A stretch of DNA of 64,000 nucleotides from Pleurocapsa minor GSE-CHR-MK 17-07R. Lineage in GTDB: Bacteria; Chloroflexota; Anaerolineae; Aggregatilineales; Phototrophicaceae. Location: positions 620,001 through 684,000 of the forward strand of contig JAHHHY010000001.1 of the NCBI GenBank assembly GCA_019359125.1, read 5' to 3'. Positions 2,509-17,190 of this stretch are shown piece after piece (positions within the stretch are counted from its first letter, which is position 1; the number at the start of each line of letters is the position of its first letter). The notes under the pieces were generated by a model. It was not told the DNA's origin. It did no database searches and was given only the letters and a program-made list of their open reading frames with translations. A program made the position numbers and the translations under genes.

Positions 2509-3286
2509 AACGATTCAGACCCCAATCATAGGCCATAAAACGAACCTTCAGCCGCGCCATGTGATCCTGAATAAACGTACGTTCATCAGGATCATCCACA
2601 TAGCGCGCCGCATATGCGACCAGGCGGCGCCCGCCCAGCAGGCCAAACAAACTCGCCCCAAAGTCCGAAGCATACCACATGAAAATACGTGAGAGCGACA
2701 CGGTATACGCCGCCTTGTCCAGTGCCAGCATGCCCCCGTTGATCGAGGCGCGTGCCGCCAGATCAAGCTGTGCCTCTATTTTCTCGGCATCATAAAAACG
2801 AATTGGTGGGCACGACTTTGCCGCACAGTTCAGCGCGAAGTGCACGCGGGCATCAAACTGCGACAGTATAAGCTTCTGACGCGGGTCATCCGCCGCAAAC
2901 GGCTTGCGCAGCCGGGCCGGGTGTCTGCGATTACAGCGCAGGATGCCATGCTCGATATCGTCCGCGCTGAACCAGAACTGCCCGACTGTATAGCCCGTGC
3001 TGGCGAAAACCCCGCGTGATTCCTGCAGGGTCTTGTCGATTTTCCGACCGATGACAGTGTCAATCAGCAGCGCGTTATACAGATTAATCCAGAACGACTT
3101 TTTCTCATCATCGGTCCCCAGTGACGCCAGATCAAATCCGCGCAGCAGATCCACCTGCTGGCGATAGGCGCGATAAGCCTCGCTGTCGGCCAGCGCCGCA
3201 TACTGTACGCGGTCGCCCACCGTGTACTCCGCCAGCATACGACGGATACTATCGATGATGGCGTACGATACTACCGGACCGGTCAT
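2498..3286 (-). CDS. DUF547 domain protein
   Basis: A 262-residue protein of the DUF547 family. The family signature is clear: F-W-I-N-L-Y-N-A-L at about 65-73 and H-F-A-L-N-C-A-A-K-S-C-P at 149-160. The Cys and His in the second motif suggest an enzyme related to cysteine-type catalysis, but no reaction is established for this family. No signal peptide is seen, whereas many DUF547 proteins are secreted. It overlaps the NUDIX gene upstream by four bases and the membrane-protein gene downstream by 11 bases, so the three are translationally coupled. Confidence 0.85.
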   Translation of the reverse strand: MTGPVVSYAIIDSIRRMLAEYTVGDRVQYAALADSEAYRAYRQQVDLLRGFDLASLGTDDEKKSFWINLYNALLIDTVIGRKIDKTLQESRGVFASTGYTVGQFWFSADDIEHGILRCNRRHPARLRKPFAADDPRQKLILSQFDARVHFALNCAAKSCPPIRFYDAEKIEAQLDLAARASINGGMLALDKAAYTVSLSRIFMWYASDFGASLFGLLGGRRLVAYAARYVDDPDERTFIQDHMARLKVRFMAYDWGLNRYDE

Positions 3287-3795
3287 CGTGGCACAAAACG
3301 CATCTGAATGGCGTCCTTGTCGTCGTAGCTGACATGCACAAAGACCGGCGCATCGTCCGGCCGGTGCCCCATCACGCGCGGCAGAATATGAGGGATGTCT
3401 TCCACTAGGTCCAGCGACATCACCGCATCTGGCGCAATCCAGTGCAGCGTCCCTTCATCACTCTGACGCACCTCGCGCCCGTCTGCCAAGGCCCGGAAGA
3501 CCAGCAGCATAATCCCGCTGGCTTCTCCCGTATCGATGTTATATACCGCGCACAGCGACAGATCCGTCACCTCAAGGCCCGTCTCCTCAAAAATCTCCCG
3601 GTGCGCGCTGGTATACGGGTCTTCATGCCGCTCAATGTGCCCGCCAACCCCGTTATACTGATTCGGGAACACTTTTCGGTGCGGCCCACGCTTCATCAGC
3701 AGCACATCGTCCCCATGAAACACAAAGCACAGCGTACGCGGAACGACGGTCCAGCGCCCCTGTATATGACTGGCACCCTGCTGCGATGCACCCAT
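3283..3795 (-). CDS. NUDIX hydrolase (MutT-like)
   Basis: A 170-residue NUDIX hydrolase. The complete Nudix box G-x5-E-x7-R-E-x-x-E-E-x-G runs from residue 52 to 73, so a diphosphate-cleaving activity on a nucleotide-type substrate is well supported. The substrate cannot be read from sequence; the K-R-G-P-H-R preceding the box resembles nucleotide-pool sanitising enzymes. It is the first gene of a three-gene minus-strand operon and is divergent from the SbnI/SerK-like gene at 3935. Confidence 0.92.
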   Translation of the reverse strand: MGASQQGASHIQGRWTVVPRTLCFVFHGDDVLLMKRGPHRKVFPNQYNGVGGHIERHEDPYTSAHREIFEETGLEVTDLSLCAVYNIDTGEASGIMLLVFRALADGREVRQSDEGTLHWIAPDAVMSLDLVEDIPHILPRVMGHRPDDAPVFVHVSYDDKDAIQMRFVPR

Positions 3796-3934: not shown

Positions 3935-4756
3935 ATGTCGATCCACAATGTCCCCATGCCCGACCTGCAAATCGTGCCTACTGCCAGCGTCCTGGCGCAT
4001 GAAGACCATGATATCCAGCGCGCCATCCCGCTCATCGAGCGCATCGGGCATGAATCTACCATGATTAATCCGCCGCTGGTGGCCCCGCTCGATAACACGC
4101 GCTACGTGGTGCTGGATGGCGCCAATCGTGTCTATGCCTTCACCCAGCTTGGCATACCGCACATTCTGGTGCAGGTGGCCCCCTACGACAGCGGCCTGGT
4201 GGAGCTGGAAACCTGGCATCACGTCATCTGCGGCTGGGACGCCGATGAATTCATTGCAGATATATCACAACTGCCTGAACTGCTGATGAGTGAAGGCAAT
4301 CGCACGACCCCGCTGCCGGTGGCCACCATCCACACCCGTGGCCATCGGACGGTGCATCTCACGCTGCCCGCAGAATCGCTCAGCACGCGCAATATCCTCA
4401 TGAACCACATCGTGCGCGTGTATCAGGCCCATGCGACACTACAGCGCACCAATCTGGACGATCTGGATGCTATCTGGCACCTGCATCCCACCGGACAGGC
4501 CGTCATCATGTTCAGGCCGTATTCCCCGGTTGAGATCCTGCAATCAGCAGCGCAGAATACGCCGCTGCCGCCGGGCGTCAGCAGGCATATCGTGCATGGG
4601 CGCGCCATTCGGGTAAATTATCCGATGGAGCGCCTGCGCGACACCACTGTCTCGCTGGAGCAGAAAAATGCAGTCCTGCTGGATTGGATGCGGGAAAAGG
4701 TTGCGCAGCGGCAGGTTCGTTATTATGCTGAGGCGACTTACCAGTTTGACGAGTAG
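3935..4756 (+). CDS. ParB/Srx-fold protein, SbnI/SerK-like (possible free-serine kinase)
   Basis: A 273-residue protein. Residues 20-100 resemble the ParB/sulfiredoxin fold of the SbnI and SerK proteins, which phosphorylate free L-serine. The D-G-A-N-R motif (61-65) followed by a hydrophobic strand and an x-V-E-L-E-T-W element matches the layout D-G-x-x-R ... V-x-V-x-x-W of that group, although Asn replaces the usual His. A conserved-looking S-R-H-I-V-H-G-R block lies near residue 225. No ATP site can be seen directly, so O-phosphoserine synthesis is only an inference; a regulatory or DNA-binding role is the main alternative. It is first in a plus-strand cluster followed by an amino-acid-binding ACT protein. 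Confidence 0.6.
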   Translation: MSIHNVPMPDLQIVPTASVLAHEDHDIQRAIPLIERIGHESTMINPPLVAPLDNTRYVVLDGANRVYAFTQLGIPHILVQVAPYDSGLVELETWHHVICGWDADEFIADISQLPELLMSEGNRTTPLPVATIHTRGHRTVHLTLPAESLSTRNILMNHIVRVYQAHATLQRTNLDDLDAIWHLHPTGQAVIMFRPYSPVEILQSAAQNTPLPPGVSRHIVHGRAIRVNYPMERLRDTTVSLEQKNAVLLDWMREKVAQRQVRYYAEATYQFDE

Positions 4757-4771
4757 AAAAGCGGCTCCGGC

Positions 4772-5206
4772 ATGTCCAAACGCGCACACGAGTTATACAA
4801 ACAGGCCAGCCTGTACAGCGATGACCGACAGTACCGCATCGTCCATCTGCCCACATCCGGCGTGATGGCGGCGGCCGGCGCCCTGGCGCAGCTGCGCGAT
4901 CCCTTCAGCGCATTGATCGTGGACAAGGATGAAGTCACGCTGATTCTGGCCGAGGAAGAACTGGCCACTTTCGGGCCACGCCTGAAAGGCCTTGAGGTGC
5001 TGCCACAGGCGTATCGGCTGATTACGTTTGATCTGCCGCTCGCGCCTGATGTCACCGGGTTTATGGCGCTCATCAGCACTGCGCTGGCCGCCGCCGGTGT
5101 GCCCATTATGCCGCTGGCTGCCTTCGCGCGTGACCATATCCTGGTGCCCGCCAGCCATTATGATGCTGCCCGGGCTGCGCTGGAAAAGTTGCGCGCCCTG
5201 CCATAA
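4772..5206 (+). CDS. ACT-domain protein (ACT_7-like)
   Basis: A 144-residue protein whose C-terminal half has the pattern of an ACT_7/CASTOR-type domain: a strand with R-L-I-T-F-D-L-P-L, a helix beginning D-V-T-G-F-M, then I-P-I-M-P-L-A-A-F and the closing S-H-Y-D-A-A-R-A-A-L helix. Such domains bind amino acids, usually as dimers. The N-terminal half may be a second, diverged ACT unit. It starts 15 bases after the SbnI/SerK-like gene, which fits a ligand-sensing partner, but the ligand is unknown. Confidence 0.75.
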   Translation: MSKRAHELYKQASLYSDDRQYRIVHLPTSGVMAAAGALAQLRDPFSALIVDKDEVTLILAEEELATFGPRLKGLEVLPQAYRLITFDLPLAPDVTGFMALISTALAAAGVPIMPLAAFARDHILVPASHYDAARAALEKLRALP

Positions 5207-5252
5207 GCATCCAGAATTACCCGACCCTCATATACTGTGGAATCAATCTCAC

Positions 5253-5624
5253 ATGGATATTCAGTTTTACCCCGAAGGCTTCTCTCCCAAACCAAAAGAA
5301 GAAGTCGTCATCGAACAGATAGAAATTGCCGTCTACCCGGATCGCTTCCGGGTATTTGTGCACGTGGTCGTCACGCCTTTCCATGATCGGCCAAACCTGC
5401 TCATTGTCGCGCGCGAAAAAGCCAGCGGCCTTATTCGTGCCGAGCTAAACATCATCGAAACGATGCATCACGACATGGAATTCACGCTGCACCTGCGCAC
5501 ACAGGGGCACGACCCGGCGGGTGACTACACACTCTCGGCAGAGCTGTTCTACGAGACGCGCAATCCGCCCCAGCACCGCTTTGCCATTGAATTCACGGTG
5601 CCGGCTGAAGGTGAAGCGGAATAA
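5253..5624 (+). CDS. Beta-rich protein of unknown function
   Basis: A 123-residue protein with alternating hydrophobic residues that suggest a beta-sandwich, and no signal peptide or membrane span. The ATG at 5253 is chosen because the same frame upstream only overlaps the ACT gene. It lies 46 bases after the ACT gene and 3 bases before the JAMM gene, so it belongs to the same transcript. It does not end in Gly-Gly, so it is not an obvious ubiquitin-like partner of the protease. I do not recognise a family. Confidence 0.65.
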   Translation: MDIQFYPEGFSPKPKEEVVIEQIEIAVYPDRFRVFVHVVVTPFHDRPNLLIVAREKASGLIRAELNIIETMHHDMEFTLHLRTQGHDPAGDYTLSAELFYETRNPPQHRFAIEFTVPAEGEAE

Positions 5625-5627
5625 CCC

Positions 5628-6158
5628 GTGTACGCGCTCACACTCTCTCCCGCCCTGTATGAGCAGATCACCGACCACTGCGCGGCCAGCCCGCAGCAGG
5701 AAGCCTGTGGCTTGCTGGCAGGGCGCGGTCAGCGTGTGGAGCGTGTGTTGCCGATCACCAATGTCGCGGCCAATCCTGCGACGGCTTATCACATGGACGA
5801 AGCTGAATTGGCCCGTGTGCTGCCCTTGCTTGCACAGGCCGGGCAGGACGTGCTGGCGGTCTATCACAGCCATCCAGACGGCAGCACGCGACCTTCGCGC
5901 ATCGACATTGCGTCATGGGCCTTTCCAGACGCCGCTATGATGATCGTCAGCCCGCACACACGGCGCGCATCTGCATGGCGGGTGCAGAACGAAGATGTCA
6001 CCCCGGTCGAAATCATGCTCGGCGCACAGGCATCCCCTGCTGTCCATCCGCCATCGACATTTGCGCGCGCGGCCATTATCCTCAGCGCGCTGCTGGGCGG
6101 GCTGGCCGTACTCCTGATTGCCCTGGCCCTGCTTCCCCCTGCGCCGCCCATACCCTGA
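5628..6158 (+). CDS. JAMM/MPN+ metalloprotease with C-terminal membrane anchor
   Basis: A 176-residue protein with a complete JAMM zinc-protease motif: Glu25 in Q-Q-E-A-C-G-L-L, then H-S-H-P at 80-83, S90 and D93. These residues bind and activate zinc in Mec+/CysO peptidases and Rad-type deubiquitinases. Unlike Mec proteins it ends in a hydrophobic segment (about 148-172), so the catalytic domain is probably held at the inner face of the membrane. It starts with GTG three bases after the preceding gene. No ubiquitin-like substrate with a Gly-Gly tail is encoded nearby, so the substrate is unknown. Confidence 0.88.
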   Translation: MYALTLSPALYEQITDHCAASPQQEACGLLAGRGQRVERVLPITNVAANPATAYHMDEAELARVLPLLAQAGQDVLAVYHSHPDGSTRPSRIDIASWAFPDAAMMIVSPHTRRASAWRVQNEDVTPVEIMLGAQASPAVHPPSTFARAAIILSALLGGLAVLLIALALLPPAPPIP

Positions 6159-6179
6159 TCGCCCTCAGGAGGACCACCC

Positions 6180-7004
6180 GTGTCACCCGTACTCATCTGC
6201 GTTCTTCTATTTGTGCTCGGCATCCTGATTGGCGGTGTCGTCAACGCGCTGTCGGATGATCTGCCCAAACGCCGCGCTCCACGCCTGCCCCATTACCCCG
6301 ACGGCACGCCGCGCCCTCTGGCAGCGTGGTGGGGCGTGACTGCCCTGCTCACACGCACCGATCGGTCTCCGTCTGGCATGCGCCTGAAACCGCGCTACTG
6401 GCTGACAGAACTATCGCTGGCGCTGCTGTTCGTCACCACCTATCTGGTCGTCATCGATGACCCCAGGATGACGCTCCCGCAGTTCATCTTCATGCTGGTC
6501 TACATGGCGCTATTCATGCTCATCACCGTGATTGACCTGGAGCACCGGCTGATCCTGTTCGTGGTGATTATCCCATCCGGCATCATCGCGCTGATCGACG
6601 CGATTCTGCTGGGCTATGGCGCAGACCTGGGCAACGCGCTGCTGGGCGCTGTGCTGGGATTCGTGATTTTCTTCCTGTTGTATGTCGGGGGATTCATCTT
6701 CACGGCGGTGCTGGGAAATCTGCGCGGCCAGAAGATCGACGAGGTAGCCTTCGGCTACGGCGACGTGATGCTCATCACCATCTCCGGCCTGATCCTGGGC
6801 TGGCAGGCGCTGATCGTAACGATGTTTATCACCGTCATTCTGGGCGCCCTGGGCGCGATCATCTATCTCATCGTCCGGCGGCTGGCGGGGCGTCATTACA
6901 ACCTGTTCACGCCCCTGCCCTACGGCCAGTACATCATCATCGCGACCATTATGATGCTGCTGTTTGCGACCGAAATCAGCAGTTTCCTGCGCGGCGGCGC
7001 CTGA
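6180..7004 (+). CDS. Prepilin peptidase (A24 family), zinc motif absent
   Basis: A 274-residue polytopic membrane protein of the type IV prepilin peptidase family, which removes prepilin leader peptides. The two catalytic aspartates are visible: D119 in T-V-I-D-L-E-H-R and D195 in G-Y-G-D-V-M-L. The N-terminal N-A-L-S-D-D-L-P matches the family's first helix. The paired C-x-x-C zinc motifs of PilD are missing, so it may lack N-methylation activity. A strong TCAGGAGGA Shine-Dalgarno at about 6166-6174 supports the GTG start. No pilin genes are adjacent. The gene ends six bases from the convergent thyX. Confidence 0.9.
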   Translation: MSPVLICVLLFVLGILIGGVVNALSDDLPKRRAPRLPHYPDGTPRPLAAWWGVTALLTRTDRSPSGMRLKPRYWLTELSLALLFVTTYLVVIDDPRMTLPQFIFMLVYMALFMLITVIDLEHRLILFVVIIPSGIIALIDAILLGYGADLGNALLGAVLGFVIFFLLYVGGFIFTAVLGNLRGQKIDEVAFGYGDVMLITISGLILGWQALIVTMFITVILGALGAIIYLIVRRLAGRHYNLFTPLPYGQYIIIATIMMLLFATEISSFLRGGA

Positions 7005-14851: not shown

Positions 14852-14889
14852 GAAGCATGACAGTACGCATCATGCCTGAGGAACCTGCG

Positions 14890-16068
14890 ATGAGTCCTGC
14901 ACCTGCACGGCACGTTTATCTGGATTATTCAGCCACTACGCCGGTCGACCCGCGCGTAGTCGAAGCCATGCGCCCGTTTCAAAGCGAGACTTTTGGGAAC
15001 TCGCACTCGGCGCACATCGATGGCCGCCGGGCAGAAACCGCAGTGGAAGAAGCCCGCGAACGCGTCGCTCAGGTGCTGGGCTGCAAACATGGCGAAATCG
15101 TATTTACCAGCGGCGGCACCGAAAGCGATAACCTGGCGATTCGCGGCACCGCGCTGGCTGGACTAAAGGCTGGGAAAAACCATCTCGTCACGACGCCTGT
15201 CGAGCACAGCGCGGTGGGCAAAACAATGGCCCAGTTATCCGAATACATGCCGTTTGAGACGACATTGCTGCCGGTGGATCAATCAGGCCTGGTCGATGCC
15301 GAAGACCTGGCCGATGCGGTTCGCCCGACGACAGGCCTCGTCAGCATCATTTATGCCAATAACGAAATTGGCACCGTGCAGCCCCTCGCACGACTGGCGC
15401 AGGCCGCCCATGAGCGCGGCGCGCTGTTTCACACCGACGCGGTGCAGGCGCCCGGACAGTTATCGCTGGACGTGAAAGCGCTGGACGTGGACCTGATGAG
15501 CATTTCAGCGCACAAGTTCTATGGTCCGAAAGGCGTGGGCGCGCTGTATGTGCGCGAAGGTATTTCGCTGGTGCCCGCCATGACGGGCGGCAGCCATGAA
15601 GAAGGCCGACGCGGTGGCACGCTGAATACAGCGGGCATCGTCGGGATGGCACACGCGCTGGCGCTGGCTGCTGAAGAAATGCCGTGGCGCGTAGCGCACT
15701 ACACTGCCCTGCGTGACCGCCTGACACAGGGAATTCTGCAAGCCGTGCCGGATGCGATCCCTACAGGCCACCCAACGGAACGACTGGCGTCGCACGCCAG
15801 CTTCATCTTTGATGGGCTGGATGGCAGCATCCTGCTCATGCACCTGGACATGAAGGGTGTGTCTGCCAGCAGCGCATCCGCCTGCAAGACTGGCAATCCG
15901 GAGCCAAGCGGCGTGCTGCTGGCGCTGGGTTATCCGCATGATACCGCGATGGGCAGCATCCGCCTGACGGTAGGTAAAGATACAAGCGTTGAAGACGTCG
16001 ATTATGCGATCCAGCAGATTGGCGAAACGGTGGCAAAGCTGCGCCGGCTGCGCCAGCAGTACGCCTGA
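14890..16068 (+). CDS. Cysteine desulfurase (NifS/IscS family)
   Basis: A PLP enzyme that removes sulfur from cysteine as an enzyme-bound persulfide. The PLP lysine lies in S-A-H-K-F-Y-G (K209) and the persulfide cysteine in S-A-S-A-C-K-T (C332) in this 392-residue numbering. The start at 14890 is preferred because a TGAGGA site lies six bases before it; in-frame ATGs at 14857 and 14872 lack one. The gene ends 30 bases before mnmA, which uses the sulfur for tRNA, so it may be the dedicated donor. IscS-like versus NifS-like assignment is uncertain. Confidence 0.93.
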   Translation: MSPAPARHVYLDYSATTPVDPRVVEAMRPFQSETFGNSHSAHIDGRRAETAVEEARERVAQVLGCKHGEIVFTSGGTESDNLAIRGTALAGLKAGKNHLVTTPVEHSAVGKTMAQLSEYMPFETTLLPVDQSGLVDAEDLADAVRPTTGLVSIIYANNEIGTVQPLARLAQAAHERGALFHTDAVQAPGQLSLDVKALDVDLMSISAHKFYGPKGVGALYVREGISLVPAMTGGSHEEGRRGGTLNTAGIVGMAHALALAAEEMPWRVAHYTALRDRLTQGILQAVPDAIPTGHPTERLASHASFIFDGLDGSILLMHLDMKGVSASSASACKTGNPEPSGVLLALGYPHDTAMGSIRLTVGKDTSVEDVDYAIQQIGETVAKLRRLRQQYA

Positions 16069-16098
16069 CCAAAACACAGATCATTGGAATTGAATCAC

Positions 16099-17190
16099 GT
16101 GACAGAGACAAACAAGCGCGTTGTTGTGGCCATGAGTGGCGGAGTAGACAGCTCCGTGGCCGCGGCATTGATGGTCGAACAGGGCTACGATGTCGTCGGC
16201 ATGATGATGCGTTTATGGTCAGAGCCGACCAGCGAAGGCGGCGCACACAACCGCTGCTGCACGCCCGAACAGCTCTCGGACGCGCGGCGCATCGCCGACA
16301 AACTGAAAATCCCGTTCTATGTGCTGGACACGCAGGACGTATTTCGCGGCAAAATCGTGCAGTATTTCATCGATACGCATACCGACGGCTTCACGCCTAA
16401 TCCGTGTATCGAGTGCAACCGGCACATCCGCTTCGACTGGCTGCTGAACAATGCGCTGGCGCTGGAGGCCGATTATCTGGCTACCGGGCATTATGCCCGC
16501 GTGGAGCACACTACTGATGGTCGGTTTCTGCTGAAGAAAGGCCTGGATGACGCCAAAGACCAGAGCTATGTACTGAGTGTGCTGAACCCGTCCACTATCG
16601 ACAAAGTGCTGTTCCCTGTCGGTGAATACGAGAAGCCGGTCGTGCGCCAGCTCGCAGCAAAGTTTGGCCTGCCCACCGCCAGCAAGAAAGACAGCCAGGA
16701 TTTATGTTTTCTGGGCGACGGCGATTATCGCCGCTTCCTGCGCGACCATGCGCCGCAGCTCATGGCCGCCGGGCCCATCGTGCGCAAAAATGGGGACGTC
16801 ATCGGCCAGCATGAAGGCCTCGCGAACTATACCATCGGCCAGCGCAAAGGCCTGGGCGTGTTTGCGGCCGAGCCGTTATATGTGCTGGCGGTGAATCCTG
16901 CGGTTAACGCGCTGGTGGTGGGCACGGCCGATGAACTGGGCAGCACCAGCCTGACCGCATCACGGGTCAACTGGGTGGCGGGCAGCCCCCCTGCCGCGTC
17001 ATTCAAGGCGGAGGTCAAGATTCGCTACAAGTCCCGGCCCGTCCCGGCGACGATCACCGTGCTGGACGGCGGGCGCTTCAGCGCAGCATTTTCGCAGCCA
17101 ATGCGCGATATCACCCCAGGTCAGGGTGCCGTCATTTACGACGGTGACATCTGCCTCGGCTCTGGCATCATCGAGCGCCGCCCTGCCTGA
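16099..17190 (+). CDS. mnmA: tRNA-specific 2-thiouridylase MnmA
   Basis: MnmA activates U34 of Lys, Glu and Gln tRNAs with ATP and replaces its 2-oxygen with sulfur. The PP-loop S-G-G-V-D-S is at residues 13-18. The two catalytic cysteines are visible, in N-P-C-I-E-C-N (C103) and D-L-C-F-L-G-D-G (C203). The G-x-L-x-N-Y-T-I-G-Q-R-K-G-L-G tRNA-binding element is present as well. The GTG at 16099 is chosen (363 residues); a TTG at 16084 would add five residues. The partner cysteine desulfurase is immediately upstream. Confidence 0.95.
   Translation: MTETNKRVVVAMSGGVDSSVAAALMVEQGYDVVGMMMRLWSEPTSEGGAHNRCCTPEQLSDARRIADKLKIPFYVLDTQDVFRGKIVQYFIDTHTDGFTPNPCIECNRHIRFDWLLNNALALEADYLATGHYARVEHTTDGRFLLKKGLDDAKDQSYVLSVLNPSTIDKVLFPVGEYEKPVVRQLAAKFGLPTASKKDSQDLCFLGDGDYRRFLRDHAPQLMAAGPIVRKNGDVIGQHEGLANYTIGQRKGLGVFAAEPLYVLAVNPAVNALVVGTADELGSTSLTASRVNWVAGSPPAASFKAEVKIRYKSRPVPATITVLDGGRFSAAFSQPMRDITPGQGAVIYDGDICLGSGIIERRPA

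Follow-up and report, generated by a model that had tools for sequence, protein, structure and literature searches.

The window analysed here, a stretch of 64,000 nucleotides (contig JAHHHY010000001.1, positions 620,001 to 684,000) from the 4.85-Mb genome of Pleurocapsa minor GSE-CHR-MK 17-07R, phylum Chloroflexota, carries a compact cluster in which an earlier note, made from the sequence alone, had read a possible O-phosphoserine and sulfur-carrier route. The five open reading frames (ORFs) that it described are all present on the plus strand, with intergenic gaps of 15, 46, 3 and 21 bases:

3935-4756, plus strand: gene 1, SerK/SbnI-type protein of 273 amino acids (aa), likely a free-serine kinase judging by sequence, profile and predicted fold
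4772-5206, plus strand: gene 2, ACT_7 protein of 144 aa, a putative CASTOR-like amino-acid sensor (ACT_7, E 9.3e-11)
5253-5624, plus strand: gene 3, Ig-like beta-sandwich protein of 123 aa without a known family (predicted local distance difference test score, pLDDT, of the model 92)
5628-6158, plus strand: gene 4, JAMM/Prok-JAB peptidase of 176 aa with a C-terminal membrane helix and an LLPPAP tail (Prok-JAB, E 2.4e-19)
6180-7004, plus strand: gene 5, prepilin-type peptidase (Peptidase_A24 match)

The start of gene 3 is most likely at 5253; an alternative longer frame from 5028 overlaps the ACT gene. Nothing on this cluster was found in the literature searched (SerK and O-phosphoserine, serA/serC with unknown domains, HcyS, and ACT with serine kinase).

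The description of gene 1 as a ParB/Srx-fold protein resembling free-serine kinases is borne out by its sequence, by profile searches and by the fold predicted for it. The protein matched the SbnI model NF033589 over its full length (E 1.6e-15) and the SerK model NF053625 at E 2.1e-5. A single-sequence search of the PDB retrieved SbnI (E 3.7e-10, residues 10-247), and a profile of 24 relatives of gene 1 retrieved SbnI at E 2.6e-27, covering SbnI residues 5-251, and SerK at E 1.1e-11, with the ParB-like Noc next at E 0.045. The predicted structure (pLDDT 90) matched SbnI with a template modelling (TM) score of 0.77 over 269 columns (E 1.3e-15) and SerK at E 3.9e-13. Its top nine PDB matches were SbnI, the free-serine kinase and a Pyrococcus homolog (TM 0.66-0.77, 237-269 columns), and ParB and sulfiredoxin (Srx) appeared only at E 7e-4 or above, mostly over 80-110 columns; both the ParB/Srx-like N-terminal domain and the C-terminal domain specific to SerK and SbnI are present. 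The motifs comprise HE at residues 22-23, DGANR at 61-65, W94-x-H96 and R217-H218, and residues H22, E23, D61, G62, R65, W94, H96, R217 and H218 are invariant in all 24 relatives (alignment A1). In the profile alignment E23 falls on Glu30 of SerK, the catalytic glutamate, and PDB titles list the SerK mutants E30A and E30Q with bound phosphoserine. HE and DGxxR, the latter including the GxxR phosphate motif, occur in 57 of 57 distinct relatives, which were chosen without motif-based selection. The earlier note had made its idea depend on kinase residues in a structural model, and those residues are there, as the Glu30 equivalent E23 and GxxR. Since gene 1 is of the SerK/SbnI type, a link to O-phosphoserine is plausible.

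The partners of gene 1 were examined by comparing genomes and neighbourhoods, with SerK used below for relatives of gene 1. The genome set comprised the window genome and 150 relatives (151 in total), mostly draft assemblies, so that single absences are weak. Relatives of gene 1 were present in 113 of the 151, the beta-sandwich gene in 131 and the ACT gene in 124, five of these 124 on weak matches with E above 1e-5. Conservation of the gene order, which the earlier note had suggested checking, holds: of the 80 best among 283 gene 1 relatives, 32 have NUDIX-SerK-ACT-beta-JAMM-A24 in the order and strands of the window, and 5 more have the five genes but no NUDIX that was detected. These counts are lowered by contig ends and by an 80% coverage requirement, and the order is not a matter of chance. 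The labels of these best 80 were nearly all Chloroflexi/Anaerolineae, some of them Aggregatilineales or Phototrophicales, with one Bacteroidetes.

Forty neighbourhoods of gene 1 relatives were then compared, 25 from the window's own family (f1) and 15 from six others (f4, f6, f7, f8, f11 and f12). JAMM comes directly after the cluster in 24 of the 25 f1 neighbourhoods, and tblastn with the window protein, which a very diverged copy could escape, found it in 0 of the other 15. Those 15 loci show SerK-ACT-beta, SerK-beta, SerK-ACT or SerK alone, and the genes downstream of the core, where scanned, encode an esterase, a CoA-binding protein or a protein kinase. In genomes where SerK is absent or placed elsewhere, ACT is retained next to DUF1015 or NifS: it directly follows NifS in L227 and L228, with a 4-bp overlap in L228. 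In L093, SerK and ACT are followed by glutamate-cysteine ligase family 2. SerK, ACT and beta form the functional core, and the JAMM and prepilin peptidases are family-specific neighbours outside it. These two peptidases, of which the JAMM is membrane-anchored, would have been acquired in one family and would stand outside the kinase route.

The kinase position of this core is occupied by a different protein in a sister family, f3. None of its 18 genomes has a SerK match, and 17 carry DUF1015 (PF06245), which in 16 of the 17 lies immediately upstream of ACT on the same contig and strand and in one lies 2.1 kb away. The DUF1015-ACT distance of 345-574 bases is counted from where the Pfam match ends, some 100 residues short of the protein's C-terminus in L224 and L235. 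Across the 151 genomes, 3 have both SerK and DUF1015, 110 SerK only, 24 DUF1015 only and 14 neither (p = 4e-15); outside f1 the corresponding numbers are 3, 30, 24 and 3 (p = 2e-10), exactly one of the two being present in 54 of 60 genomes, with both p-values inflated by kinship. The split recurs within f2 (6 SerK, 3 DUF1015, none with both) and within f6 (one each). Three of the five f4 genomes hold both, with DUF1015 on a different contig from ACT, and eleven f1 genomes hold neither. Sampling of the window's phylum showed DUF1015 in 137 of 201 genomes, and 3 of 14 control genomes also carried it (Bacteroides, Thermotoga and Methanosarcina).

The two proteins also share an order of motifs. 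All 40 DUF1015 loci have PHE, DGHHR and PxKST, in frames picked by similarity and not by motif, and these motifs follow the same order as PHE, VDGHHRW and SPKTTRH in SerK. In hhalign comparisons with the SerK profile, DUF1015 gave P 0.0002 (probability 47%) and about 0.002-0.0025 (probability 12-13%), aligned at the C-terminal motif, and none of 300 shuffled SerK sequences reached either score. A merged SerK and Chloroflexota profile gave P 0.0005 and 0.0015, and the Chloroflexota SerK profile alone only P 0.03 and 0.08, with DGHHR aligned to DGANR; no SerK was among the PDB sequence matches of the DUF1015 searches. The profile similarity is thus suggestive and falls short of proof, and DUF1015 is a likely remote relative of SerK. 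Its place beside the same ACT sensor, in the kinase's stead, hints at its function, on which no paper was found in the literature searched, which mostly excluded subscription journals. DUF1015 may form another branch of free-serine kinases, itself widespread, that was swapped in place for the SerK/SbnI type within one order, with ACT as the common allosteric subunit; we consider the chances of this to be even.

Two of the other descriptions in the earlier note, an ACT protein and a beta-rich unknown, hold as well. The ACT_7 match identifies gene 2 (E as listed above), and its closest relative among solved sequences is CASTOR2 (E 0.001), which suggests amino-acid sensing; we propose that it is a sensor regulating the kinase. 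In L065 (6378-6557) the ACT gene is shortened to a 92-aa frame, and the remaining cluster genes are kept. At E 1, gene 3 matched nothing in Pfam or NCBIfam, and its model has seven strands. The best solved matches, mostly GH2 enzymes with TM 0.4-0.6 on the query, are all generic beta sandwiches, and no active site was recognisable. In two loci of other families, L079 (7568-9346) and L223 (3818-5626), a serine/threonine protein kinase gene with a weak N_BRCA1_IG match comes after the beta gene, and L224, L231, L233 and L235 hold genes that by appearance resemble these protein kinases. In L076 (8499-8903) and L231 (5750-6223), of families f8 and f7, respectively, the gene that comes after the beta gene or overlaps it encodes a CoA_binding_2 protein.

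The distribution of cysteine biosynthesis genes bears on where O-phosphoserine might be used. CysE exceeded its curated cut-off in 43 of the 151 genomes, namely in 20 of 113 with SerK versus 23 of 38 without (p = 1.6e-6). CysM-type synthase, defined as a match of at least 61% identity to the synthase of the window genome (114 genomes), was present in 99 of 113 SerK genomes versus 15 of 38 without SerK (p = 1.9e-8). That SerK genomes are poor in CysE and rich in this synthase is in keeping with a CysM-type enzyme that uses O-phosphoserine as its substrate. Several classic CysK matches adjoin CysE, judging from coordinates. The window genome has nine PALP matches, one of which, the only one scanned, reads as CysK/CysM-like; the other eight were judged by eye to be threonine synthases, dehydratases or TrpB-like. 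It also has two cystathionine gamma-synthase/lyase-like genes, and with the eight PALP matches otherwise assigned, reverse transsulfuration would require CBS activity of the CysM-type enzyme. No CysE was found above the curated cut-off in this genome. A CysE-like match (115 of 210.65 bits) was rejected as the CysE of cysteine synthesis: by eye it is set among glycosyltransferases and was therefore taken as a surface-polysaccharide acetyltransferase, possibly an EpsC-type serine acetyltransferase. Elsewhere, threonine-synthase-like proteins in L055 (3161-4840) and L052 (3073-5142) seem by eye to be fusions with receiver domains, one or two in number, of the response-regulator kind.

Three genes outside the cluster complete the setting:

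3283-3795, minus strand: NUDIX hydrolase, divergent from gene 1, a conserved neighbour within the window's family
14857-16068, plus strand: NifS-type cysteine desulfurase, 8 kb from the cluster in the window
16084-17190, plus strand: MnmA, 8 kb from the cluster in the window

MnmA and the NifS-type desulfurase lie directly after the cluster, on the opposite strand, in 20 of 25 f1 loci, their identity across these loci being inferred from L056.

The observed gene content, gene order, predicted fold, residues, gene swap and phyletic pattern point to gene 1 as an ACT-regulated serine kinase that makes O-phosphoserine for cysteine and/or serine assimilation, an interpretation that we hold with somewhat more confidence than doubt. 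We infer its kinase activity, donor nucleotide and ACT ligand, the flux to cysteine and the role of the beta protein along the following lines. Gene 1 would most likely phosphorylate free L-serine on its hydroxyl group, with a nucleotide as the phosphate donor and Glu23 acting as the counterpart of SerK Glu30, and the ACT protein would most likely bind serine, O-phosphoserine or cysteine and then tune the kinase, with the beta-sandwich protein as a possible partner or adaptor. The O-phosphoserine formed may supply the sole CysM-type synthase where a genome has no CysE, and/or connect serine to 3-phosphoglycerate, and DUF1015 would fill the kinase slot in the sister family.

Several observations weigh against this kinase interpretation and lend themselves to other explanations. 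The scores of gene 1, 57 bits for the SbnI model (cut-off 350) and 24 bits for the SerK model (cut-off 380), are far below both equivalog cut-offs; gene 1 is accordingly neither SbnI nor SerK proper and appears from its sequence to be a further branch of the SerK/SbnI fold group. The histidine of DGxHR is replaced by asparagine, with DG[AS]NR in all 57 distinct relatives and DGxHR in none, which argues against a simple transfer of function. The same loss would suit a nucleotide-binding regulator that is not an enzyme and acts as a sensor, together with ACT, on cysteine or sulfur genes. SbnI carries the database name "bifunctional transcriptional regulator", and nucleotide binding without known catalysis is possible for ParB-fold proteins, according to PMC12704722. 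The catalytic glutamate, the tryptophan and the C-terminal domain with R217-H218 are nevertheless invariant, and DUF1015, the alternative occupant of the slot, retains the full DGHHR, so we judge a purely regulatory role unlikely. Further adverse points concern the product. Within f1, SerK is associated neither with CysE (p = 0.37) nor with the CysM-type synthase (p = 1.0), so the whole-set p-values partly reflect kinship; of the 15 genomes with the synthase but no SerK, 10 also lack CysE, which means that SerK is not the sole source of activated serine; and in f3, with its DUF1015-ACT-beta arrangement, CysE is present in 15 of 18 genomes and the CysM-type synthase is missing in 17 of 18, making cysteine an unlikely product there. 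Taken together, these three patterns suggest that the role of the kinase is probably wider than cysteine. A kinase serving serine assimilation to 3-phosphoglycerate by reverse SerC and SerA, and not cysteine, would agree with the CysE-rich sister family and with the position of DUF1015 directly downstream of serA in at least 2 of 30 phylum-wide loci (L256 and L270; a lower bound, as ten neighbouring ORFs were scanned with Pfam). The same role is proposed for archaeal SerK in the Discussion of PMC5120207, which places serK near serA and aminotransferase genes in Desulfurococcales. Speaking against it are the scarcity of CysE and the frequency of CysM-type synthase in SerK genomes, the NifS, MnmA and glutamate-cysteine ligase neighbours, and the failure to notice serA or serC among the SerK neighbours scanned, which were not all of them. 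We regard an exclusive role in serine assimilation as possible, if somewhat doubtful. A further point against the kinase interpretation as a whole comes from the window genome, where seven class-V aminotransferases did not match SerC models at E 1e-30 (7 of 16 matches, matched stretches only).

Last among the adverse observations, five f1 relatives (L217-L221) without SerK retain NUDIX and ACT-beta-JAMM-A24, with about 160 bases between NUDIX and ACT in L217; no DUF1015 was found in them either, yet ACT and beta persist. This loss, the distant position of beta or ACT or their location on a separate contig in some genomes, and the variation of the genes downstream of beta from family to family would be expected if the five genes were merely neighbours through conserved synteny, without a joint function. 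The replacement of SerK by DUF1015 beside ACT, the 15-bp spacing of SerK and ACT, and the 4-bp overlap of the DUF1015 and ACT genes in L224 make this explanation improbable in our view.

The carrier route had been suggested partly on the strength of the JAMM gene, whose description as complete proved correct: EACG and HSHPDGSTRPSRID are present. The full HxH...S..D pattern was found in 23 of 24 gene 4 orthologs and the C-terminal hydrophobic helix in all 24; in the window gene (5628-6158) and the 24 orthologs, a conserved LLPPAP-type stretch ends the tail after the membrane helix. As the earlier note said, no Gly-Gly carrier lies inside the cluster. A search of the genome located a GGQ-tailed carrier elsewhere and one CysM-like synthase, so that a carrier is not absent genome-wide. 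The carrier belongs to the following set, which spans less than 7 kb:

L045, 6268-13077 (C19:146000-164000): HcyS-like homocysteine set of JAMM, rhodanese, MetY, MetX, GGQ carrier, two small genes and MoeB-rhodanese E1

The MetY and MetX of this set scored above their cut-offs, and the MoaD/SAMP-like carrier (SAMP1, 53.5 of 60 bits) and the E1 (MoeB, 509 of 633) below them; the locus looks like a thiocarboxylate-dependent homocysteine synthesis set. As it owns a JAMM, the window JAMM is not needed for a carrier route. Carrier, E1 and JAMM were found within up to 1.5 kb of the CysM-like gene in none of 30 loci examined (of the 114 ortholog genomes), one of which has a rhodanese-like gene nearby. 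A CysO-CysM-Mec-like or other conjugation scheme, in which O-phosphoserine from SerK is used by CysM to load a thiocarboxylated carrier and the membrane JAMM releases cysteine, can draw on the intact active site of that JAMM and on the single GGQ carrier, E1-rhodanese and CysM-type synthase of the genome. The carrier and E1 nonetheless sit with a second JAMM, MetY and MetX in their own homocysteine-type set and were not seen near CysM in the 30 loci examined, and the window JAMM was not seen in the 15 SerK neighbourhoods of the other families and persists where SerK is lost. The CysO-Mec reading was rejected on this locus evidence, and we consider it very improbable. Of the route first proposed, the O-phosphoserine link stands as plausible, and the part assigned to the window JAMM does not find support.

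Should the kinase interpretation be correct, much of one Chloroflexota order would use a free-serine kinase with an amino-acid sensor as partner, the large family DUF1015 would gain a testable activity, and missing cysteine or serine steps in genomes without CysE would be read differently. No clear-cut bacterial homologs of archaeal SerK were reported in 2016, in the Discussion of PMC5120207. Free-serine kinases as a group are known from a few archaea and as SbnI.

Among known systems, CysO-CysM-Mec is mycobacterial, and HcyS/HcyF/HcyD-MetY serves thiocarboxylate-dependent homocysteine synthesis in Wolinella, whose HcyS set the C19 locus resembles. The window genome has JAMM peptidases and a CysM-type synthase in common with CysO-CysM-Mec, whereas the window cluster is without carrier or E1 and its JAMM is membrane-anchored and family-specific. 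SbnI of Staphylococcus is the free serine kinase for staphyloferrin B. Like gene 1, it has the full-length two-domain fold, HE, DGxxR, W-H, the C-terminal P-x-G-x-[ST]-R and GR; the two differ in sequence (19-22% identity in the structural match, 57 of 350 bits) and in the asparagine that gene 1 has for the DGxHR histidine, and gene 1, unlike SbnI, is paired with ACT and a beta-sandwich protein. SerK of Thermococcus and Pyrococcus, an ADP-dependent free serine kinase, shares with gene 1 the fold, the Glu30 equivalent, DGxxR and the C-terminal [ST]RH, at 14-15% identity, whereas gene 1 is bacterial, has an ACT partner and carries asparagine for histidine. DUF1015, although longer (about 445 aa, with some 50 additional residues separating HE from DG) and only weakly matched by profile (P 0.0002-0.08), resembles SerK in its HE, DGHHR and PxKST order, in its slot before ACT-beta and in a nearly exclusive phyletic pattern.

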